Source of the DNA: a bacterium
GTDB lineage: Bacteria > B130-G9
Direction: 5' to 3'
Length of the DNA: 64,000 nt
Assembly: GCA_035527515.1 (NCBI GenBank)
Contig: DATLAJ010000146.1
Span: 1-64,000, forward strand
Shown here: positions 5,751 to 53,550 of the stretch, in pieces
How positions within the stretch are numbered: position 1 is the first letter of the stretch
Layout: each line of letters starts with the position of its first letter
Notes under the pieces: generated by a model
Told to the model about the DNA's origin: nothing
Database searches by the model: none
What the model saw: only the letters and a program-made list of their open reading frames with translations
Position numbers and translations under genes: made by a program

Positions 5751-5784
5751 TCCTTCTTCGTGTGTTTTCGTGAACTTCGTGGAT
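5751..5784. repeat. short CTTCGTG-type interspersed repeat
   Basis: The segment TTCGTGAACTTCGTGGA here recurs at 45363-45379 in a similar intergenic context, each time preceded by a related TTCTTCGTGTGT or TTCTTGGTGTGT stretch. No coding potential. It lies between family-2 repeat copy 1 and the GT4 gene. Confidence 0.5.
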
Positions 5785-40447: not shown

Positions 40448-41683
40448 TCAGCGTGTTGAGGGCTTCTCACCTGCATCCTCATAGAACTTGAGCAAATTCG
40501 CAACCTGTTGCTCAAGTGTGAACCCATCTAGCACCCGTTTCCTACCTTGCGCACCCATCTTAGCACGCAATTCCTCGTCTTCAGCCAACACCATGATCTT
40601 CTCCGCGAGTGCTTCAGGATCGCGCGGTGGCACAATAAAGCCTGTTATTTCATGTTCCACAACCTCTGGCAATCCCCCAGCACTTGTGCAGATTACGGGG
40701 ATTTCGAAGCACATCGCCTCCCGTATCGCGTTGCAGAAACCCTCAGATACACTAGGCTGAAGGTATATGTCGGTCTTCTCATAAAGTTTAAGGATTTCGT
40801 CTCTATCGAGCCTTCCGTGTAAGTAGACTACCTCACTCAAACCCATTTGCCGCACGGCATACTCGATGGCTGGTCTATGTTCGCCGTCACCGACGATGTC
40901 ATAGCGCAGTTTCATGCCTCTTTGCACCAAGTCGTGGACAGCTTGCAGGGCATATTCATAGCCCTTTTGCCAAACCAAGTTCCCAACGCTCAGGAGCGCT
41001 AGCTGCCCTTGCTGTCCAGCCTTAGGGCCCGACCGCAACGGGAAGCTGGGCCGATAGACGTGAGCATCTGTCCCCTCAGGAATGACCCGGCCTTTCCCAT
41101 CTGGCAGGCCAAGCTCTCTCGCCCGGCTCAGCAACGCCCGACACTTGAAGCGGAATCCATCACAGTGTCTCAGCAGATTCTTGTATGTCTCTTCATGAAG
41201 CAGTGAATCGATGAAAAGGTCGCTCCCTACGAAGCTCGCTATGATTCTGAAAGGGAAATGCTCCTTAAAGAGTACAAGATCCAAGAACTTGCTTGCCACC
41301 CAGCCATCCTCGAGGTTAACGATGTCGAAGCGTTCGCCGACGAACGGCAGAAGGCTGGGTAAGCTCGTTACCGTCCGGTGAGGCCCATGGCGACGATTAA
41401 CCGCGACAATGAGCCGGAGCGTATGCCTTGGATGGGCTAAGACCTTCTGGAGCAAGAGCGCAATCAGTCTGATGCTCAGCTTCCATCTTGATAGCCTCCC
41501 TGGGAAGTACTCGACGCGACACCCACAGCTCTCCAAGATGTTCTGTTCTGCTAAATACGGGCATTTGCATTCAGCAAACAAAGTGAGATCTACGTCATGC
41601 TTGACAATATATTCTATTCTCCTGACAGCGAATGTTACCGTGGGACCCGCAACAAGGCAGATGCTTAACCGTTTTCTGGTCAT
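40448..41683 (-). CDS. glycosyltransferase family 4
   Basis: About 411 residues. RLSICLVAGPTVTFAVRRIE starts the protein. The donor domain has LLSVGNLVWQKGYEYALQA, YDIVGDGEHRPAIE, and SEGFCNAIREAMCFEIPVIC with the E-x7-E pair. Start placed at ATG 41683, which overlaps the ABC exporter stop by four bases (ATGA); a start at 41722 would lie inside that gene. Coupled translation ties it to the exporter. Confidence 0.92.
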   Translation of the reverse strand: MTRKRLSICLVAGPTVTFAVRRIEYIVKHDVDLTLFAECKCPYLAEQNILESCGCRVEYFPGRLSRWKLSIRLIALLLQKVLAHPRHTLRLIVAVNRRHGPHRTVTSLPSLLPFVGERFDIVNLEDGWVASKFLDLVLFKEHFPFRIIASFVGSDLFIDSLLHEETYKNLLRHCDGFRFKCRALLSRARELGLPDGKGRVIPEGTDAHVYRPSFPLRSGPKAGQQGQLALLSVGNLVWQKGYEYALQAVHDLVQRGMKLRYDIVGDGEHRPAIEYAVRQMGLSEVVYLHGRLDRDEILKLYEKTDIYLQPSVSEGFCNAIREAMCFEIPVICTSAGGLPEVVEHEITGFIVPPRDPEALAEKIMVLAEDEELRAKMGAQGRKRVLDGFTLEQQVANLLKFYEDAGEKPSTR

Positions 41684-43437
41684 GCTAATTGTGGTCCATC
41701 TTGCCGCTGCTGTGCCTTCCACAGCTTCTTATATGTGTCGCTGATCCCTAGTAGTTCGTCGTGCGGGGCGAAGGCCTCGACGGTGCCGTCGGCAAGAACC
41801 GCGATCTTGTCGGCCTTGCGGAGGGTGGAGAGGCGATGCGCGACGACGAGCGTAGTTCTGCTCTCCATGAGCTTGTCCAGCGCCTCCTGCACAAGCGTTT
41901 CTGTGATTGAATCGAGGGCGCTTGTCGCCTCGTCCAAAAGGAGTATCGGGGCGTTCTTCAGGACGGCCCTGGCGATGTTTATTCTCTGCTTCTGGCCGAC
42001 CGACACGCTCGTTCCTCCCGGCCCGATCACCGTCTCATACTTACCCGGCCAGCTTATTATGTCGTCGTGGATGTTCGCCGCCCTTGCCGCCTCGATAACC
42101 TCACGTTCGGTGGCGTTCGGCTTTCCGTATCGGATGTTCTCGAGGATTGACACGTTAAACAGAAAGGGCTCCTGCGTAACAATTGCGATGCTATCCATCA
42201 GGTCCGCAAGCCTTATCTTTCTTATGTCTGTATTGTCGAAAAGAACGCTTCCTTTTCTAGGGTCGTAGAATCGGACGGCGAGGTTTAATAATGTCGTCTT
42301 GCCGACGCCCGAGGCGCCCACAACGCCGATCGTCTCGCCGGCTCGGATTTTGAGGTTGACGTCCTTGAGCACCATCGCAGTATCGTAGGAATAAGAGACG
42401 TCATCGAACTTGATCTCGTGAGGCGACGTCTTGAGCGGCAGGGCGTCCTTGCCGTCCTTGATCTCCGGCTCGGTCGCTAGCATTTCATCGACCCGGTCGA
42501 GGCTTACGGTCTGGGTTTTGACCATGGTGTATGCGTGCAGGATGTTTCGTATGGGGCCAAAGAGCTGGTTTAGGATCAGGATAAATGCGATCAGCGTTGG
42601 CCAGTCGATAGTCCCCTCGAGCATCTTCATGCCGCCAAACACGATGACAAACACGACCCCGAAACCGGCGAGGCTGTCAAAGATGACGCCGGACAGCGAC
42701 CGGGTGCGGACCATCCTCATCATCTGTTTGAACCACTCAATTGCGGAGTTCTGGCAGGCCTGCGCCTCCCTTTCCTCGCCGCGAAACGCCTTGACGATCC
42801 TAATGCCCGCGAGTATCTGCATCAGGAGGTTCATTATCTGCACACCGTGGAAGCGCGCCTTTCTTGACGCCTCGAGCAGCCTTGTGCCGATGTACATCAT
42901 TGGATACAGAGCCAGCGGGAGCGCGACAAGTCCCCACAGCGCCAGATTCGCGTTCATCTTGGCGGCCGCGATCAGGAGGCCGCCCGCGGCGAGCAGAGCG
43001 GTGATTATCGAGCAGGTAGTGTCAACCAGCATCCGAAGTGCGGTTACGTCGCCGCTGCTGGCCCTGATGATGTCGCCTCTGGTGTGCTTGTCGAAGAAGC
43101 TCAGCGAGAGCTTCAGCATGTGCTGCACTATCTTGAGGCGCAGATTGAGCTCGATTCTCCGCCCGAGCTCAGTCTGAAGCACCTTGGAGAAGTAGTCCGC
43201 GATGCTGCGGCCCATCCAACATGCGAAGATGAGCGCCGCTGCGCCCCAGAGCATTCCTGTCCCTTGCGAGCCACTCTCAGTTCCCAGGGACTTAAAGATA
43301 CCCTCTAAGAAAGTCTTGACCATCCACAGGTAGCCGACCTGAAGGGCGGACCTGGCGGTGCCCGCGGCGACGAACTCGGCCGTCACCAGGCGATGCTGCC
43401 ACATCAACCTGAGAGCGACGAGTAATTTCTTTAGCAT
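41680..43437 (-). CDS. MsbA-like ABC exporter (fused permease and ATPase)
   Basis: 585 residues. Residues about 1-320 are a six-helix type IV exporter domain; 340-575 are the nucleotide-binding domain with Walker A (GASGVGKTTLL), a modified signature SVGQKQR in place of LSGGQ, Walker B plus D-loop (ILLLDEATSALD) and the H-loop VVAHRLSTL. Members of this group flip lipid A-core, lipid-linked oligosaccharides or other lipids. In this cluster it is the only visible transporter, so it probably exports the lipid-linked glycan, since no Wzx flippase is present. It overlaps the aminotransferase fusion gene by seven bases. Confidence 0.92.
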   Translation of the reverse strand: MLKKLLVALRLMWQHRLVTAEFVAAGTARSALQVGYLWMVKTFLEGIFKSLGTESGSQGTGMLWGAAALIFACWMGRSIADYFSKVLQTELGRRIELNLRLKIVQHMLKLSLSFFDKHTRGDIIRASSGDVTALRMLVDTTCSIITALLAAGGLLIAAAKMNANLALWGLVALPLALYPMMYIGTRLLEASRKARFHGVQIMNLLMQILAGIRIVKAFRGEEREAQACQNSAIEWFKQMMRMVRTRSLSGVIFDSLAGFGVVFVIVFGGMKMLEGTIDWPTLIAFILILNQLFGPIRNILHAYTMVKTQTVSLDRVDEMLATEPEIKDGKDALPLKTSPHEIKFDDVSYSYDTAMVLKDVNLKIRAGETIGVVGASGVGKTTLLNLAVRFYDPRKGSVLFDNTDIRKIRLADLMDSIAIVTQEPFLFNVSILENIRYGKPNATEREVIEAARAANIHDDIISWPGKYETVIGPGGTSVSVGQKQRINIARAVLKNAPILLLDEATSALDSITETLVQEALDKLMESRTTLVVAHRLSTLRKADKIAVLADGTVEAFAPHDELLGISDTYKKLWKAQQRQDGPQLA

Positions 43438-44981
43438 CTGCCGCTATCCTGAACCTTGTTAGAGCAGAAGCGCCCGATTATCTGCGCGCAGCGTTCAATC
43501 GCATCAGCCTCAAGCTCGGGGAACATCGGCAGGCTCAGTATCTCAGCGGCGAGCTTCTCGGCCACTGGGAAGTCGCCCTGCTTGTAGCCCAAGTGGGCGA
43601 AAGCTCCCTGTAAATGAAGCGGAACAGGGTAATGAAGCCCCGCCGAGATGCCGTGCGATGTCAAATGCTCGCGCAATCTGTCCCTCTTGCTCGCCCTGAT
43701 TACGTATAGGTGATAGACGCTTTCGCTGTATTCTGGCTCAAAAGGAATGATAACGTCAAGTTTCCCCAAAGCTTCGCCATATAAGCCTGCTTTCTCACGC
43801 CTCATCTCGTTGTTCTTATCGAGGCGCTTGAGCTTTGCGCTTAGCACCGCAGCCTGCATCGAGGAGAGCCGGCAGTTGTAGCCAACAACAGCGTGGTGAT
43901 ACTTGTCGGTGGTGCCGTGGTCACGAAGCATTCTCACCCTCTCGCTAACGTGAGGATCGTTCGTAACGACCGCACCGCCGTCCCCATAAGCGCCAAGATT
44001 CTTGCTGGGGTAGAAGCTGAAGCAGCCAACGTCGCCGATCGCGCCAACTCGCTTGCCTTTGTAGCGCGCTCCGTGCGCCTGACAGGCGTCCTCTATAACC
44101 TTTAGGTTGTGCTCTTGCGCGATGTGAAGAATCGGGTCCATGTCCGCCGGCTGGCCGTAGAGATGGACAGGGATGATTGCCCGCGTTCGAGGCGTTATGG
44201 CCGCGTCAATCTTGAAGACGTCTATGTTGAACGTCCGCTCATCGACGTCAACGAAGACCGGCCTTGCCCCCGTATAGATTATCGCCTCGCACGTTGCCGC
44301 GAATGTGTTCGGAACAGTTATGACCTCGTCCCCTTTGCCAATGCCAAGCGCCAGGAGCGCAAGATGAAGCGCCGCCGTCCCGCTGCTCACACCGACGCAG
44401 TGCTTCGCCTCGCAGAAATCAGCGAACTGCTGCTCGAACTTGGTCACAGCCGGGCCCAGAATGAACGCACAGGACTGGATCACCTCGGTCAGTTCATCGT
44501 CTATATCATTGTATATCTCGTGCAGCTGCGCGGATAGGTCCACGAACGGAACGTTCTTTCTGCCGCGGTCCTTCTTGAAGATTTCAATAAACTCGTCCGG
44601 CGTTACGGCCGGCACAGGAGAACGCTCGAAATGCCGGACGTTGCGCGTCACGATGTAGTCGAGGTTGAACTGCCGAGCGGCCGCCATTTGGAGGCCGTCC
44701 TCGAAGTTGTCGGGATACTTAGCCAGCGCCTCGGAGATGAGGGATGTGCGCAGAGGTATTATTGAGACCCTTGCATACAGTTCCCTCAAAACAGCCATTG
44801 CCGTTGCCTTATTCACACTCTTGGCGGTGACGTATTCAATTGTGGGGAATGAGTTGGCGACCATCCAACCCTCACAAATGCCTGCTTCGCAAAAGGCCAG
44901 AACGGAGTCGCTGTTCTCCCATTGTGGTCTTTGTAGCGCCACATCAAGAGGCACATTCGTATCGACCATAAGCCTTATCAT
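43431..44981 (-). CDS. PIN-domain nuclease fused to DegT/DnrJ/EryC1 sugar aminotransferase
   Basis: One continuous 516-residue frame joins two unrelated proteins. Residues 1-139 are a complete PIN-domain toxin (MIRLMVDTNVPLDV, E49, FEDGLQMAAA with D95, DYIVTRNVRHF with D108), ending in the usual TPDEFIEIF tail. Residues about 142-510 are a PLP-dependent sugar aminotransferase (VPFVDLSAQLHEI start, SSGTAALHLAL, EDACQAHGA, PLP lysine K327 in FYPSKNLG). The joint lies near 44561 and has no stop and no nearby start codon with a ribosome site. It overlaps the antitoxin gene by four bases. Both active sites look intact. Such a fusion is unknown to me. Confidence 0.9.
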   Translation of the reverse strand: MIRLMVDTNVPLDVALQRPQWENSDSVLAFCEAGICEGWMVANSFPTIEYVTAKSVNKATAMAVLRELYARVSIIPLRTSLISEALAKYPDNFEDGLQMAAARQFNLDYIVTRNVRHFERSPVPAVTPDEFIEIFKKDRGRKNVPFVDLSAQLHEIYNDIDDELTEVIQSCAFILGPAVTKFEQQFADFCEAKHCVGVSSGTAALHLALLALGIGKGDEVITVPNTFAATCEAIIYTGARPVFVDVDERTFNIDVFKIDAAITPRTRAIIPVHLYGQPADMDPILHIAQEHNLKVIEDACQAHGARYKGKRVGAIGDVGCFSFYPSKNLGAYGDGGAVVTNDPHVSERVRMLRDHGTTDKYHHAVVGYNCRLSSMQAAVLSAKLKRLDKNNEMRREKAGLYGEALGKLDVIIPFEPEYSESVYHLYVIRASKRDRLREHLTSHGISAGLHYPVPLHLQGAFAHLGYKQGDFPVAEKLAAEILSLPMFPELEADAIERCAQIIGRFCSNKVQDSGRC

Positions 44982-45289
44982 TCGTCCGTCTCCAGGAAGT
45001 GCATGTAATACATCTCCTTGATCTCCTCGTCCGTCATTGGAGGCAGGACGCCGACAAGATCTACTAACCAGCCCTCAGCTTTCAGGTTCAGTTCAGGAAA
45101 ATGCCGATCGAAGTGATCCTGAAGTTGCTTCTTGATGCGCCTTTTTTCAGCACCCTCCGGCGGCCTCCATTTAGTCCTATCTTGTTTCGCCTCGTCAACG
45201 GTTAGGACGGCCTGCGCGCCGGGGGCCAGGTCAACCTCTTCCTCCGGCACGAATACTCTCCCATCATACCTCGCTTTGATTGCTCTCAT
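44978..45289 (-). CDS. AF2212/DUF104-like antitoxin
   Basis: About 103 residues. The N-terminus MRAIKARYDGRVFVPEEEVD and LAPGAQAVLTV is the short beta-hairpin domain of AF2212-type (PF01954-like) antitoxins that accompany PIN toxins. The C-terminal helical part (MTDEEIKEMYYMHF) should wrap the toxin. The start at ATG 45289 has GGGAG eight bases upstream. The stop overlaps the PIN-aminotransferase start by four bases (ATGA), the standard coupling of a toxin-antitoxin pair. Confidence 0.75.
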   Translation of the reverse strand: MRAIKARYDGRVFVPEEEVDLAPGAQAVLTVDEAKQDRTKWRPPEGAEKRRIKKQLQDHFDRHFPELNLKAEGWLVDLVGVLPPMTDEEIKEMYYMHFLETDE

Positions 45290-45318
45290 CTCGTCATCTC
45301 CCAGTTTTCCCACAAGAA

Positions 45319-45385
45319 GGAGTTATCCACCAAGAACACGAAGGTGTTCTTCTTGGTGTGTCTTCGTGAACTTCGTGGACCATGA
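45319..45385. repeat. short CTTCGTG-type interspersed repeat (second copy)
   Basis: Contains CCAAGAACAC and an inverted GTGTTCTTCTTGG arm, followed by TTCGTGAACTTCGTGGA, the segment shared with 5767-5783. It fills the 130-base gap between kdsD and the antitoxin gene and may act as a transcript hairpin here. No coding content. Confidence 0.5.
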
Positions 45386-45419: not shown

Positions 45420-46424
45420 CTATCTCATGCCCAGCTGTATCAGATCGTGCAGTCGAATCAGCCCCTTGAACTCGTCAGATTCATCCCCAACAACAGGGAG
45501 AACCGATATCTGGCTCGGACGGTCCTCCATGAGCGCCAGAGCATGGGAGGCCATCTCACTTTCATGAACCTTGGTGGGGTTCCTCGTCATCACATTGGAC
45601 ACTGGCTCGTCAATGAACTTCTCAATGTGTTCCTTCAGGAGGATTCGGCGCACATCGCCATCCGTTACGATACCCAGCAGATTATCCGCTTCATCAACCA
45701 CACACACGGCGCCAAGCGGCATCTTTGTCATCTCAGCGACCGTTTGCCTGATGGTTGTGTTCGGAGAGACAAGCCCGACCACATCCTTAGGATGCATTAC
45801 TTCCCGAACTTTCATGAGAAGCCTCCTGCCCAGGGCGCCAGCGGGATGAGACAGTGCGAAATCCTCACGCTTGATACCTTTGGCAACAATGAGTGCCGCC
45901 GCAAGGGCGTCTCCCATCGCAAGCGTCGCGGTCGTGCTCGTCGTAGGTGCGAGCCCCAGCGGACACGCCTCCTTCTTGACCCCGATATCCAGAGTGACGT
46001 CCGCAAGCTCAGCAAGCGGCGAGCTTGGTTTGCTGGTCATCGCGATTATCTTTACGTCGCGCTGCACAAGTATCCTTACCGGCCTCAATAGCTCCTCGTT
46101 GCTGCCGCCGTGAGAGATGGCGATCATCGCGTCGCCAGGACTTATCAATCCAATGTCACCATGTAGGGATTCGACTGGATGAATGAAGTAAGCCGGCGTC
46201 CCGGTGCTGGAAAAGGTGGCCGCTATCTTTCTCCCTATAAGCCCTGATTTGCCCAGGCCCGAGACAAAGACCGTGCCCCTGCTATTCAACAGAATCTGAA
46301 GCGCCGCCACAAAATCCTCATCGATCCTGTCGGCAAGCCTCAGAACTGCCTCTGCCTCCTCCCTCAGAAGCCGCCTCGCCTCGCCCACCGAACTAGTTAA
46401 TACCTTCTCGCCAAGGTCAACCAT
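45420..46424 (-). CDS. kdsD: arabinose-5-phosphate isomerase (KdsD/KpsF)
   Basis: Converts ribulose-5-phosphate to arabinose-5-phosphate, the first step to Kdo. Residues about 35-190 are the SIS sugar-isomerase domain (VFVSGLGKSGLIGRKIAATF, YFIHPVESLHGDIG, AISHGGSNEELL). Residues about 205-330 are a pair of CBS domains. 334 residues, typical of KpsF/GutQ proteins. It overlaps kdsA by eight bases, and GGAGG lies upstream of its ATG inside kdsA. Confidence 0.95.
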   Translation of the reverse strand: MVDLGEKVLTSSVGEARRLLREEAEAVLRLADRIDEDFVAALQILLNSRGTVFVSGLGKSGLIGRKIAATFSSTGTPAYFIHPVESLHGDIGLISPGDAMIAISHGGSNEELLRPVRILVQRDVKIIAMTSKPSSPLAELADVTLDIGVKKEACPLGLAPTTSTTATLAMGDALAAALIVAKGIKREDFALSHPAGALGRRLLMKVREVMHPKDVVGLVSPNTTIRQTVAEMTKMPLGAVCVVDEADNLLGIVTDGDVRRILLKEHIEKFIDEPVSNVMTRNPTKVHESEMASHALALMEDRPSQISVLPVVGDESDEFKGLIRLHDLIQLGMR

Positions 46425-47244
46425 CCCAAACGCCCTCCGTCATGGACCGCCTCATGGCCTCTCTTATCCTCAGGCAAGTCCCGACAATCCGGCGGAACGC
46501 CATCGGCGTTATCATATTTGGCCCATCACAAGGCGCCTTATCAGGATCGTTGTGAACCTCGAAGAACAGCCCGTCGCAGCCCGCACCAACGGCAGCGAAC
46601 GCCAGCGGCTCCACAAACTCCCTCGCACCGCCTGATGATCCGCCTGCCGCCCCGGGAAGCTGAACCGAGTGCGTCGCGTCGAAAACGACGGGCACGCCTA
46701 TGGCCTTCATGATCAGGATGCTACGCATATCCACCACGAGGTTCCCATAGCCCAACGTAGTGCCCCGCTCAGTCAAGAAAACCTTGTCATTCCCTGTGCT
46801 CTTCACTTTCGCCACGCTGAAGCGCATGTCCCCGGGCGACATGAACTGCCCCTTCTTGATGTTGACGGGCAGCCCAGACCGTCCTGCCTCGACCAGCAGG
46901 TCAGTCTGCCTACACAGAAATGCAGGAATCTGAAGAATATCCACCACCTGGGCAACGGTAGAAACCTGCGCCGTCTCGTGCACGTCCGTCAGAACCTTCA
47001 ACCCAAGCCGATCTTTGACGGTCTGCAACGCCTCGAGCCCCTTCTCCATCCCGATCCCCCTGAACGAGCCGATCGACGTCCGATTCGCCTTGTCGAAACT
47101 CGACTTGAAGACAAAATCAACGCCCAGCGGCTCCAACGCCTCCTGAATCATCTCGGCCACCATGACGGCATGATCAGCCGACTCCACCACGCACGGACCA
47201 GCGATCAAGAAAAGTCCCCTATCTTCAGGTCCCACAAGCATCAT
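46417..47244 (-). CDS. kdsA: 3-deoxy-8-phosphooctulonate synthase (KdsA)
   Basis: Condenses arabinose-5-phosphate with phosphoenolpyruvate to Kdo-8-phosphate. LFLIAGPCVVES opens the TIM barrel. FKSSFDKANRTS, GLKVLTDVHE, QIPAFLCRQTDLL and FDATHSVQLPGAAGG are KdsA signatures. 275 residues. ATGATG start with GGAGAG upstream. It overlaps the SDR epimerase gene by four bases and kdsD by eight, forming a translationally coupled set. Confidence 0.97.
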   Translation of the reverse strand: MMLVGPEDRGLFLIAGPCVVESADHAVMVAEMIQEALEPLGVDFVFKSSFDKANRTSIGSFRGIGMEKGLEALQTVKDRLGLKVLTDVHETAQVSTVAQVVDILQIPAFLCRQTDLLVEAGRSGLPVNIKKGQFMSPGDMRFSVAKVKSTGNDKVFLTERGTTLGYGNLVVDMRSILIMKAIGVPVVFDATHSVQLPGAAGGSSGGAREFVEPLAFAAVGAGCDGLFFEVHNDPDKAPCDGPNMITPMAFRRIVGTCLRIREAMRRSMTEGVWDG

Positions 47245-48206
47245 CTATCTCTCCTGGCCGCTATTTGTGTCTCCCCCCCATCAAGAACACGCTTACAATA
47301 TGTCCTCAAACCGTCCTCGACGCCTATTCGGGCCTCGTAGCCGAGCCCATCCCGAGCTGCCCCGATGTCGGCAAGCGAGTGCATCACGTCCCCAGGACGC
47401 CGGTCAATGTGCACCGCCGGAACCCGAACGCCTATGTATTCACCCAGCAGCTCGGCAAGACGGTTTACCGTGATCCTCGTGCCACAGGCGATATTGAAGA
47501 CACTGCCGGCGCAGTTGGGCGCTTCGGTTCCGGCGAGGTTGGCATCCACAACGTTCTCAACAAAAGTGAAGTCCCGGGTCTGTTCCCCGTCGCCGTATAT
47601 CTGCGGCGCCTCCCCTTGCAGGAGTGCCGCTACGAACTTAGGAACAACGGCTGCGTAGTGTGAAGTTGGGTCCTGCCGTGGCCCGAAGACGTTGAAGTAA
47701 CGCAATGAGACAGTCTCAAGTCCGAAAAGCTGGAAGAAGACCCGGCAATAGTATTCACCTGCCAGCTTCGAGACTGCGTAGGGCGAAAGAGGCGCAGGAG
47801 CCATCGTCTCCAGCTTCGGCAGCACCTCAGAATCACCATAGACAGACGAGGATGACGCATACACAAAACGCTTCACGCCCGCCTCTCTCGCAACCTGAAG
47901 CATGTTCAGCGTTCCTACAACGTTCGCATTGTTTGTAGCTATCGGGTCCTTCACTGAGCGAGGCACCGAAGGAAGAGCGGCCTGATGCAGCACATACTTA
48001 ACCCCCAAGACCGCCCTCTTGCACATGGACAGGTCGGCGATATCACCCTCGAGAACTTCTATCCTGTCCCAAAAAGCCGAGAGATTCTCTCGCTTCCCTG
48101 TGCTGAAGTTGTCGAGCACTCTCACTGTCCTGCCCAGCCGCACGAGGCGCTCGGCTATGTTTGACCCTATAAAGCCGGCGCCTCCAGTAACTAGATAGAT
48201 GCTCAT
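47241..48206 (-). CDS. SDR family NAD-dependent epimerase (UDP-sugar 4-epimerase type)
   Basis: About 321 residues of the extended SDR family. The Rossmann NAD motif is TGGAGFIGSN, and the catalytic set is S-S-S and YAVSKLAGEYY. FNVFGPRQDPTSHYAAVVP is typical of UDP-GlcNAc/GlcNAcA or UDP-galactose 4-epimerases. Start chosen at ATG 48206 (MSIYLVTGG). Its first 338 bases are duplicated at 50093-50430. It supplies nucleotide sugars for the glycan. Confidence 0.92.
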   Translation of the reverse strand: MSIYLVTGGAGFIGSNIAERLVRLGRTVRVLDNFSTGKRENLSAFWDRIEVLEGDIADLSMCKRAVLGVKYVLHQAALPSVPRSVKDPIATNNANVVGTLNMLQVAREAGVKRFVYASSSSVYGDSEVLPKLETMAPAPLSPYAVSKLAGEYYCRVFFQLFGLETVSLRYFNVFGPRQDPTSHYAAVVPKFVAALLQGEAPQIYGDGEQTRDFTFVENVVDANLAGTEAPNCAGSVFNIACGTRITVNRLAELLGEYIGVRVPAVHIDRRPGDVMHSLADIGAARDGLGYEARIGVEDGLRTYCKRVLDGGETQIAARRDR

Positions 48207-48377
48207 CTCACTCAATGTCTGTTGGTTTAAGATACCGGCCAAGAACACAACTACACCACCCTCGGACGGGGCTGCTTATGCTCGCTCCCGACAACTCAGT
48301 GTCTACCTATCTTACTGCTGGCTTGCGCAAATGTCAAATCCCGATCGGAGAATTGCGGGTTCATCTGTCCCTGATTT

Positions 48378-50707: not shown

Positions 50708-51940
50708 CTATTCGCAGCGCGATGAGATGCCCCCATTCATCAGCTCGCGCTGCCCAGGCTCTTTCGCGCTGCCCAGACTCTCTCTCGCTGCCAACGTCGC
50801 AGCATCATAGACTTCCTTCAGGCTCACGTGCGCTCGAAGGGCGGCATCTCGACACGACTTATAGTCCGGAGCCACATTCATAATCTCGTCTGAAGTCCTG
50901 CCGATCTTAACTGTTACCTGCCCATATTCGGTGTCAACGAGAGTGCTTTCTCTGAAAAGCTTCCTACGATTCACCTCGCCAACTCGCACTCCGAGCGTGC
51001 TCGTGTGCACAAAGACCGCCCTGAGGCAATCATCCAGCTTCTCGTGCGACGTGAGAACGCTGAGTATGAACCCCGCCCGGCCCTTCTTCATCACAGTCGG
51101 CGTTACGAACACATCGAGGGCACCCTCACCAAAGAGCGCCTCGCAGGCGGCGCTCAGCAGCTCCGCGCTCATGTCATCGATGTTGGTCTCTAGAAGGACG
51201 ACCTGATCGTGATCGTACTCACCGCTGTCCGTATCGCCGATCACGACCCTCAACATATTCGGTATCTCAAGGTCCCTCGTGCCAAGCCCATAACCAATGG
51301 CATTCACCTTCATCGGCGGCATGGCCCCGAAAGCGACGCAGAGATTCCGCAGAAGCGCTGCCCCGGTCGGGGTAACAAGCTCCGCCTCGATCCCACGCGA
51401 ATAGACTGGCAGCCCCTTGAGCAGCGCAAGGGTCGCCGGCGCCGGGACAGGAATCTCGCCATGCTGGCACTTCACGAAACCAGTTCCGACGTGAACTCTG
51501 GAGCAATATGCCCTCTCGATGCCCAATAGCTCGAGCGCAGCAATGGAGCCAATGATGTCAACTATGGAATCAAGGGCTCCTACCTCGTGAAAATGAATCG
51601 TTTCAGCATCTTTTTGATGAATGCCGCCCTCGACCTTCGCGACCTGCTCGAAGACCGCCTTGCTCTTGGCCTTAACAGCGTCGCTCAGCTCGCTCTGGTC
51701 GATAATCTTGAGTATGTCACCCAGGTGTCGATGCACGTGCTCCTCCCCGGCATCAACCCGGAACTTCGTGCCCGACAACGCCCCCTTCATGCCCTTCACT
51801 GCGCTCAGCTCAACCCCGGAGACCTTGAGCTTGCGCAGCTCCTGCTCGAGCCGATCAAGTGATAGGCCAGCATCCAGCAAAGAGCCGATAAACATGTCCC
51901 CGCTGGCCCCGGAGAAACAATCGAAGTATGCGATTCTCAC
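50708..51940 (-). CDS. larC: nickel-pincer cofactor biosynthesis protein LarC
   Basis: Inserts nickel into the pyridinium bis-thiocarboxylate mononucleotide to complete the pincer cofactor first found in lactate racemase. MRIAYFDCFSGASGDMF start, histidine-rich EEHVHRHLGDI and TIHFHEVGALDSIVDIIGS (nickel-handling), and VTPTGAALL are family signatures. 410 residues, full length in one frame, so no programmed frameshift is needed. It is one base downstream of larB. Confidence 0.95.
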   Translation of the reverse strand: MRIAYFDCFSGASGDMFIGSLLDAGLSLDRLEQELRKLKVSGVELSAVKGMKGALSGTKFRVDAGEEHVHRHLGDILKIIDQSELSDAVKAKSKAVFEQVAKVEGGIHQKDAETIHFHEVGALDSIVDIIGSIAALELLGIERAYCSRVHVGTGFVKCQHGEIPVPAPATLALLKGLPVYSRGIEAELVTPTGAALLRNLCVAFGAMPPMKVNAIGYGLGTRDLEIPNMLRVVIGDTDSGEYDHDQVVLLETNIDDMSAELLSAACEALFGEGALDVFVTPTVMKKGRAGFILSVLTSHEKLDDCLRAVFVHTSTLGVRVGEVNRRKLFRESTLVDTEYGQVTVKIGRTSDEIMNVAPDYKSCRDAALRAHVSLKEVYDAATLAARESLGSAKEPGQRELMNGGISSRCE

Positions 51941-51941
51941 G

Positions 51942-52694
51942 TTATTCTCCCATCCGGTTTATCACGCTGGCCGCATATCCAGCTCCAAAACCGTTGTCAA
52001 TGTTCACCACCAAGACGCCCGGCACGCACGAGTTCAGCATCCCCAGCAAAGCCGAGAGACCTCCGAAACTTGCGCCGTATCCCACGCTAGTCGGCACCGC
52101 GATGACCGGCCTATCCACAACCCCGCCAACGATGCTTGGCAGGGCGCCCTCCATGCCGGCCACGACGACGATAACGTTTGCAGACGTCAACTTCTCCCTG
52201 CTCCCAAGAAGCCGATGAAGGCCCGCAACACCAACGTCGTACAGCCGGTCCACCCGGTTGCCCATTGCCTCAGCGGTTACGGCCGCCTCCTCTGCTATCG
52301 GTAGGTCCGACGTGCCCGCGCTCACGATCAAGATCAGATTATCATTCACCGGACTGCGCCGCTCACCGACCAGCACCACCCTCGCCGTCTCGAAATAGAC
52401 TGCACTGCTTTCGACATTCCGGATCGCATCAAACACCGAGTCGCTGGCTTTTGTCGCCAGGATGGGCGCCCCATAAGAGGAAAGAGTCTGCACAATCTTG
52501 GCGATCTGCTCGTTCGTCTTGCCCGTGCAGAGCACCACCTCGGCAAATCCCTTGCGCAGAGCTCTATGAGTATCGACTTTGGCCCAGCCCAGGTCCTCGT
52601 AAGGAAGAGACTTCAGCCGTTCAAACGCCTCGCCGGGCGTGGTCTTGTGCGCCGAAACGTCCGAAAGAAGCTCCCTAATACTCTCTCTGTCCAC
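51942..52694 (-). CDS. larB: pyridinium-3,5-biscarboxylic acid mononucleotide synthase LarB
   Basis: Carboxylates and hydrolyses nicotinic acid adenine dinucleotide in the first step of pincer cofactor synthesis. The C-terminal part is AIR-carboxylase-like: SAGTSDLPIAEEAAVTAE, YDVGVAGLHRLL, VVAGMEGALPSIVGG, VPTSVGYGASFGG. 250 residues, normal length. It overlaps larE by 20 bases. Confidence 0.95.
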   Translation of the reverse strand: MDRESIRELLSDVSAHKTTPGEAFERLKSLPYEDLGWAKVDTHRALRKGFAEVVLCTGKTNEQIAKIVQTLSSYGAPILATKASDSVFDAIRNVESSAVYFETARVVLVGERRSPVNDNLILIVSAGTSDLPIAEEAAVTAEAMGNRVDRLYDVGVAGLHRLLGSREKLTSANVIVVVAGMEGALPSIVGGVVDRPVIAVPTSVGYGASFGGLSALLGMLNSCVPGVLVVNIDNGFGAGYAASVINRMGE

Positions 52695-53550
52695 GGCTAA
52701 CCCCTTCTTTGAGCACCTCGTTCATGCTGCCTGTTCTGTATCCCTCAACGTCCAAGCTTACGAACGTGTAGCCAAGCGCTTTGAAACTCTCAACTATCAC
52801 CGCCGCAATCTCTTTCTCAACTACCCGCGGGAGGTCCGCACTGGGAACCTCGATTCTCGCTGTGTCCGCGTGGTCCCGCACCCTGACTTGGCTAAAACCC
52901 AACTCCCTCATGAACTCCTCGCACGCCTCTATCCTGGAAAGTCGCTCCACCGTTAGCTTCTCCCCAAACGGAACACGCGTCGCCAGACACGAATTCGACG
53001 GCTTGTCCCAAGTCGGAAGGCCGAATCCCTTGGACAGGGCGACGATCTCACGCTTCCCAAGCCTCGCCTCCCTGAGCGGGCTTCGGATGCCAAGCTCCCT
53101 GGCCGCCCTCATCCCCGGACGGTAATCGCTCTCGTCGTCTTGGTTCACACCGTTCACTACGACAGCTGCCCCCACCTTTGCCGCCTCCCGGAGCAGCAGG
53201 TCACCGACGAGCGTCCCACAGCGATAGCACCGGTCCTTCCCGTTTGCCACGAATTCTGCGTCCGTCATCTGATCCGCCGGGAAAACAACGTGCCTGACGC
53301 CGAGCTCCTGGGCCAGCAACTTCGCCTGCTCAAGCTCGTGCCGCGGATATATCTTGCCCGTCGCCGTCTCCGCAGTTACCGCGCTGCCCAGAACGTCAGA
53401 GGCCACCTTCAGCAGAAAGGCGCTGTCCGCTCCCCCAGAATAGGCAACGAGAACGCTCTGCATTCCGGCAAGCAGGCTCCTCAGTTGCTGGAGCTTCTCG
53501 GAAGTTGCTACATATTCAGACTTGGTGCCGCGGATTGGGGCCTCCTCCAC
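52675..53550 (-). CDS. larE: ATP-dependent sacrificial sulfur transferase LarE
   Basis: Converts the two carboxylates of the LarB product to thiocarboxylates. PP-loop VAYSGGADSAFLLKVA, CYRCGTLVGDLLL, and DKPSNSCLATRVPFG, whose cysteine is the likely sacrificial or cluster-binding one. 291 residues. First gene of the larE-larB-larC set. No lactate racemase (larA) gene is present in the window, so the client enzyme lies elsewhere. Confidence 0.95.
   Translation of the reverse strand: MEEAPIRGTKSEYVATSEKLQQLRSLLAGMQSVLVAYSGGADSAFLLKVASDVLGSAVTAETATGKIYPRHELEQAKLLAQELGVRHVVFPADQMTDAEFVANGKDRCYRCGTLVGDLLLREAAKVGAAVVVNGVNQDDESDYRPGMRAARELGIRSPLREARLGKREIVALSKGFGLPTWDKPSNSCLATRVPFGEKLTVERLSRIEACEEFMRELGFSQVRVRDHADTARIEVPSADLPRVVEKEIAAVIVESFKALGYTFVSLDVEGYRTGSMNEVLKEGVSRGQREY

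Follow-up and report, generated by a model that had tools for sequence, protein, structure and literature searches.

The locus described here raises the question of why a PIN-domain toxin, with an antitoxin still beside it, should form one protein with a sugar aminotransferase, and what the toxin part does there. It lies in a stretch of 64,000 nucleotides (nt) of contig DATLAJ010000146.1 (assembly GCA_035527515.1), hereafter the window, in which a gene on the minus strand (44981->43431; 43431..44981) encodes a PIN_3::DegT fusion of 516 amino acids (aa). The gene is a single open reading frame (ORF) with an ATG start, 516 codons, and neither a stop nor a frameshift inside. Pfam places PIN_3 at residues 3–116 (E=5.8e-10, 40.4 bits against a cut-off of 27) and DegT_DnrJ_EryC1 at residues 157–501 (E=7.5e-131, 437 bits), and an AlphaFold2 model of the fusion has a predicted local distance difference test score (pLDDT) of 87.9 and a predicted template modeling score (pTM) of 0.87. 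The initial annotation, which had a complete PIN toxin continuing in frame into a DegT-type aminotransferase, is borne out by these data, the strand being minus. We think it reasonably probable that the toxin of an AF2212 + PIN_3 module, joined in frame to an aminotransferase, is undergoing domestication into an accessory or docking domain without nuclease activity.

By Pfam, residue alignment, and the PIN-type order of secondary structure in the model, the PIN domain spans residues 1–137 (44571..44981, minus strand). A joint of residues 137–144 (KDRGRKNV; 44550..44573, minus strand) leads from its end to the first DegT motif, VPFVDL, and the DegT/DnrJ/EryC1/StrS sugar aminotransferase domain takes up residues 145–516 and the stop codon (43431..44549, minus strand). 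The G+C content runs across the joint without a break. The same full-length fusion, together with its antitoxin and operon, is present in G001 (QMNL01000299.1, 78% identity) and G003 (JAFGIT010000093.1, 71%), which are separate, independently assembled metagenome-assembled genomes (MAGs) of Candidatus Coatesbacteria. Because independent MAGs carry an identical architecture, the fusion is real and not an artefact. The initial annotation knew of no described example, and we likewise found no description of a PIN–DegT fusion in the literature searched, which did not include the main PIN classification paper, so a prior mention is possible. A PADLOC search gave no match, no relative of the window PIN was found in phages, and plasmids yielded DegT matches only, with no fusion.

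The antitoxin gene begins at a conserved ATG (44978..45289, minus strand), with a GTG at 45313 as a longer alternative start. It was identified by alignment and by a match to PF01954 over residues 10–46 (21.9 bits against a cut-off of 21.6), and its C-terminal tail, PPMTDEEIKEMYYMHFLETDE, is kept in three genomes. The AF2212/COG2880 (DUF104) family has already been reported as the antitoxin of PIN toxins (PMC2701414). Both the profile match and the place directly upstream of a PIN gene agree with an AF2212-like (COG2880) antitoxin. Its stop overlaps the start of the fusion by 4 nt (44978..44981, minus strand), so the claim that a whole toxin–antitoxin operon had been joined to a surface-sugar enzyme through a four-base overlap holds, and we infer that the pair is translationally coupled. 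This arrangement recurs among 24 free-standing PIN_3 genes examined, where an upstream ORF abuts or nearly abuts the toxin in 24/24 cases and overlaps it by 4 nt in 19/24. Among 193 genomes, the antitoxin family was found in three Coatesbacteria and as one weak match, which lies beside a different PIN. Across the antitoxin and PIN residues 1–70 (window 44772–45289), the two genomes of one genus are as diverged from each other as different genera are (nucleotide identity 0.41–0.71), and identity jumps sharply to 0.83 at PIN residue 71, which suggests replacement or fast evolution of a toxin–antitoxin specificity block.

To judge how much of the toxin is left, the 24 free PIN_3 toxins served as the reference for conservation; D6, Y49, D92, E94, D95, A102, and T112 are invariant in all of them. 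The window PIN aligns to the free toxins with an hhalign probability of 99.95%, and in the AlphaFold2 model it shows the PIN order of strands and helices, with block pLDDT values of 89–96 over most of the domain. It therefore has the profile match and the fold of a PIN_3 (VapC-like) toxin; it is not a small free-standing protein beside an antitoxin, being fused to DegT, though the antitoxin is present. Of the 15 positions that free PIN_3 toxins conserve, 14 are retained, with D7, T8, N9, D13, R18, Y50, E94, D95, Q98, A102, T112, R113, and N114 all in place. The exception is position 92, which is N in the window, G001, and G003 and D in 24/24 free toxins. Consequently, the claim that all expected acidic residues are present stands except at this position. 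The PIN of G003 resembles that of the window, D92N being the sole loss among positions invariant in free toxins, while the sister species G001 carries T8I, D95H, and R113H in addition.

The fusion is not confined to Coatesbacteria. Looking for the PIN plus DegT architecture elsewhere, as had been proposed, recovered it in G001 and G003, in 47 of 77 genomes of a second phylum, and once in a third phylum. The second phylum came to light through G008, where a domain of equal length precedes DegT; other long DegT frames in that small sample were rejected as fusions, since they proved to be open upstream frames and only G008 was real. A profile search of the phylum gave matches in 48/77 genomes, 47 of them within frames of 471–910 aa. 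G053, G058, and G059 contain an exact match to the target of the Nitrospina probe NTSPN693, lying within the 16S rRNA in the loci checked; because of this match, we take the phylum to be Nitrospinota, a phylum of marine nitrite oxidizers. In a survey of 386 genomes, profile matches fell into free PIN_3 proteins (about 85–167 aa, the matches ending near residue 134) or fusions (501–547 aa), with none between, and the third phylum was represented by the single genome G165. Two side observations concern these genomes. A different DegT fusion, with a hexapeptide-repeat N-terminus ahead of DegT in a 540-aa frame, was seen at L128 (G385:C5). In G165, a truncated PIN fragment (L146:1053–1343) lies about 1.3 kb upstream of the fusion and is nearly identical to the N-terminus of the fused PIN; the interval holds a DUF433-like gene and another small gene.

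Outside Coatesbacteria the active site is damaged in the fusions examined. The G165 PIN has D95Y, Y49L, R17A, T112S, and N114H. In Nitrospinota, Pfam recognizes PIN in only 3/15 members (best E 0.011), and D12 is retained in 1/34, Y49 and R113 in 0/34 each, and D95 in 4/34, compared with 21–24 of 24 free toxins. The relationship is seen by profile alignment, where the Nitrospinota domain matches 23 free PIN_3 toxins at an hhalign probability of 99.2% over 127 collinear columns (0.1% for an unrelated control), and by AlphaFold2, in which its strands and helices follow one another as in the window PIN. Profile and model evidence together identify the Nitrospinota domain as a PIN that has decayed. 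A profile search of the PDB with this pseudo-PIN and a phmmer search with the window PIN found nothing meaningful, and among the Foldseek matches listed for the whole models there were DegT structures only, so Foldseek gives no independent PIN match. For close Nitrospinota pairs, the ratio of nonsynonymous to synonymous substitution rates (dN/dS) was 0.08–0.30 for the pseudo-PIN and 0.02–0.22 for DegT; the decayed domain is therefore under constraint (purifying selection). No antitoxin was found upstream of the Nitrospinota fusions, compared with an upstream ORF in 24/24 free PIN_3 genes; further upstream lies an HNH gene or a UDP-sugar dehydrogenase. In many Nitrospinota (L045–L070), a conserved 93-aa HNH nuclease-like gene stands 30–140 nt upstream of the pseudo-PIN::DegT gene.

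On at least two occasions a DegT partner was recruited, whatever the origin of the PIN part, because monophyly of the fused DegT domains is rejected: in the approximately unbiased (AU) test, a single clade of all of them had p=2.3e-8, and those of Coatesbacteria/G165 and of Nitrospinota take different places in the tree. One clade of Coatesbacteria and G165 DegT domains was not rejected (p=0.48, AU test). A single origin for all fusions is accordingly rejected by the DegT data. The fusion may also have been lost in one lineage. In G002, a genome of the same family as the window species, the gap between kdsD and msbA (L152:5287–5393) encodes IFPKLEESAIERCDELIDNLTESQGIG and a stop, in frame. This peptide aligns to the C-terminal end of DegT in the window with a score of 56, compared with 41 for the best of 500 shuffled gaps. 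An empty site predating insertion was therefore rejected, as the gap retains part of the DegT C-terminus in frame. Judged by that remnant, a deletion in G002 removed most of DegT, plus any antitoxin and PIN that preceded it, so loss was tolerated there.

Taken as domestication, the history would run as follows. The toxin of an AF2212 antitoxin/PIN_3 module would fuse in frame with an aminotransferase of the 3-keto-sugar type, and its PIN part would shift from an RNase to a structural, docking, or regulatory domain attached to that enzyme. On the best reading, the window species represents an early stage, in which the PIN fold and most of the active site remain and the PIN part is probably bound at all times by its partner, the coupled antitoxin. 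Bound in this way, the antitoxin would silence any RNase activity and perhaps stabilize or position the enzyme. The PIN part would assist the surface-sugar aminotransferase as an accessory domain, in docking, assembly, or regulation. A wider claim would be that PIN toxins have repeatedly been captured as regulatory subunits of aminotransferases for cell-surface sugars, the Coatesbacteria antitoxin now switching the enzyme on and off or determining its placement, so that the toxin–antitoxin pair would have become a metabolic switch, and the Nitrospinota domain filling the same role without antitoxin or nuclease; we put this forward tentatively and regard it as rather unlikely in full. Two observations weigh against domestication of the kind we favor. 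With 14/15 conserved positions in place, the window PIN could still be an active RNase. In addition, the PIN parts of the fusions cluster against free PIN_3 (98/92), while the DegT parts do not, which may mean that the PIN part arose once, or may be an effect of long branches and biased sampling of free PIN.

If the window PIN were a working RNase held by its antitoxin, the fusion might make loss of the toxin costly, as the initial annotation proposed, or let the antitoxin gate the aminotransferase. The retained and coupled antitoxin is consistent with this, as are D6, D12, R17, Y49, E94, D95, T112, R113, and N114, kept in both the window and G003. However, D92 is N in 3/3 Coatesbacteria fusions, G001 has kept antitoxin and fusion without D95, and the G002 deletion took most of DegT, along with any antitoxin and PIN once there. 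With the PIN also damaged in G165 and in all Nitrospinota examined, addiction by an active toxin is not borne out as a general explanation, and a tethered active toxin is unlikely even in the window. Gating of the enzyme by the antitoxin is possible, in Coatesbacteria only, because the Nitrospinota fusions have no antitoxin. The annotation had also held that absence of the fusion from every other genome, together with catalytic decay of the PIN part, would count against it; decay is what the relatives show, while the fusion is widespread.

It is less likely still that the PIN part is idle, a neighboring toxin gene having been joined to the enzyme by a lost stop codon and kept foldable only to spare it. 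Catalytic decay and the faster evolution of the PIN part relative to DegT would fit such a hitchhiker, but not its retention over many Nitrospinota genera and two further phyla, its association with at least two DegT partners, or dN/dS values of 0.08–0.30. A decayed PIN could alternatively bind RNA without cutting, for example its own mRNA, and so tie the enzyme level to RNA; the active-site residues have been replaced by varied ones and the sequences give no sign of kept RNA contacts, which makes such a switch highly improbable. An error of assembly or sequencing at the joint, conceivable for a genome in 183 contigs, can be dismissed given the identical architecture in independent MAGs and about 50 further fusions in other phyla.

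The enzyme half is that of a DegT/DnrJ/EryC1/StrS aminotransferase, with a full-length domain and the residues of the pyridoxal phosphate (PLP) site. The PLP lysine noted initially is K327 (FSFYPSKNLG; codon at 44001..44003, minus strand), invariant across 30 aligned fusions, and D298, Q301, and S322 are invariant as well. The best solved relatives are 7b0d, QdtB (3frk), DesV (2oga), and WbpE (3nyu), to which the modeled fold compares in Foldseek with TM-scores of 0.94–0.95 normalized to the targets. The candidate substrate would be a 3-keto sugar nucleotide, as for aminotransferases of this type. The operon prompted us to consider KdnA, the 8-amino-Kdo aminotransferase (5k8b), which shares the DegT family and whose role would suit the Kdo genes of the operon. 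The match is distant, however (1.1e-51, compared with 5.8e-126 for 7b0d), and because 5k8b ranks far below the QdtB/WbpE types the enzyme was not assigned as KdnA.

The operon runs in the order epimerase, kdsA, kdsD, antitoxin, PIN::DegT, MsbA-like transporter, and then glycosyltransferases, the genes from the epimerase to the transporter being on the minus strand. It opens with an NAD-dependent sugar epimerase/dehydratase (47241..48248; PF01370), found in the same place in G002. There follow KdsA, 3-deoxy-8-phosphooctulonate synthase (46417..47244; TIGR01362 above cut-off), and the KdsD/KpsF arabinose-5-phosphate isomerase (45420..46424; TIGR00393, 305.7 bits against a cut-off of 203.7), a neighbor kept in G001, G002, and G003. 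Downstream, an MsbA-like ABC transporter (41680..43437; PF00664 + PF00005) overlaps the end of the fusion by 7 nt. Near fusions in Nitrospinota and in G165 there are genes or domains of the Gfo/Idh/MocA and hexapeptide acyltransferase types, a context that is known from pathways of the WbpA/WbpB/WbpE/WbpD type. Wherever examined, then, the fusion sits among genes of sugar biosynthesis, whether kdsA-kdsD-msbA or UDP-sugar dehydrogenase with Gfo/Idh/MocA. Elsewhere in the window, a 21-nt dispersed repeat, CCACGAAGTTCACGAAGACAC, lies in the gap that precedes the antitoxin, at 45358–45378, and recurs with one mismatch at 5762–5782, with none expected by chance, and LarC, LarB, and LarE genes for the nickel-pincer cofactor lie side by side at 50708–53550.

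Each half of the fusion has well-known counterparts. VapBC-type modules of PIN_3 (PF13470) and AF2212/COG2880 share with it the PIN fold, most active-site residues, and a coupled upstream antitoxin. Their toxin is free-standing and about 140 aa long, whereas that of the window has D92N and runs on into a 375-aa aminotransferase; the fusion's relatives have shed catalytic residues and, in Nitrospinota, the antitoxin too. The DegT 3-keto-sugar aminotransferases (QdtB, DesV, WbpE, 7b0d) agree with it in having the complete domain, the PLP lysine, and the fold, and what sets the window enzyme apart from the unfused relatives aligned is an extra N-terminal PIN domain of 140 residues. A precedent for a PIN without nuclease activity is SMG5, whose PIN is catalytically inactive by itself, keeps its fold, and acts as a partner domain (PMC12923823). 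However, SMG5 works in eukaryotic mRNA decay, and it pairs with a second PIN rather than with a metabolic enzyme.

The fusions, together with free toxins, form a graded natural series, from free toxin with antitoxin, through a fused toxin with a nearly intact site and a fused toxin with a broken site and the antitoxin kept, to a constrained pseudo-toxin without antitoxin. Toxin domestication is therefore directly testable. The series also assigns a fold to a conserved Nitrospinota domain that Pfam mostly misses. If it is true that the antitoxin gates the enzyme, this would be a new mode of control for surface-polysaccharide synthesis.
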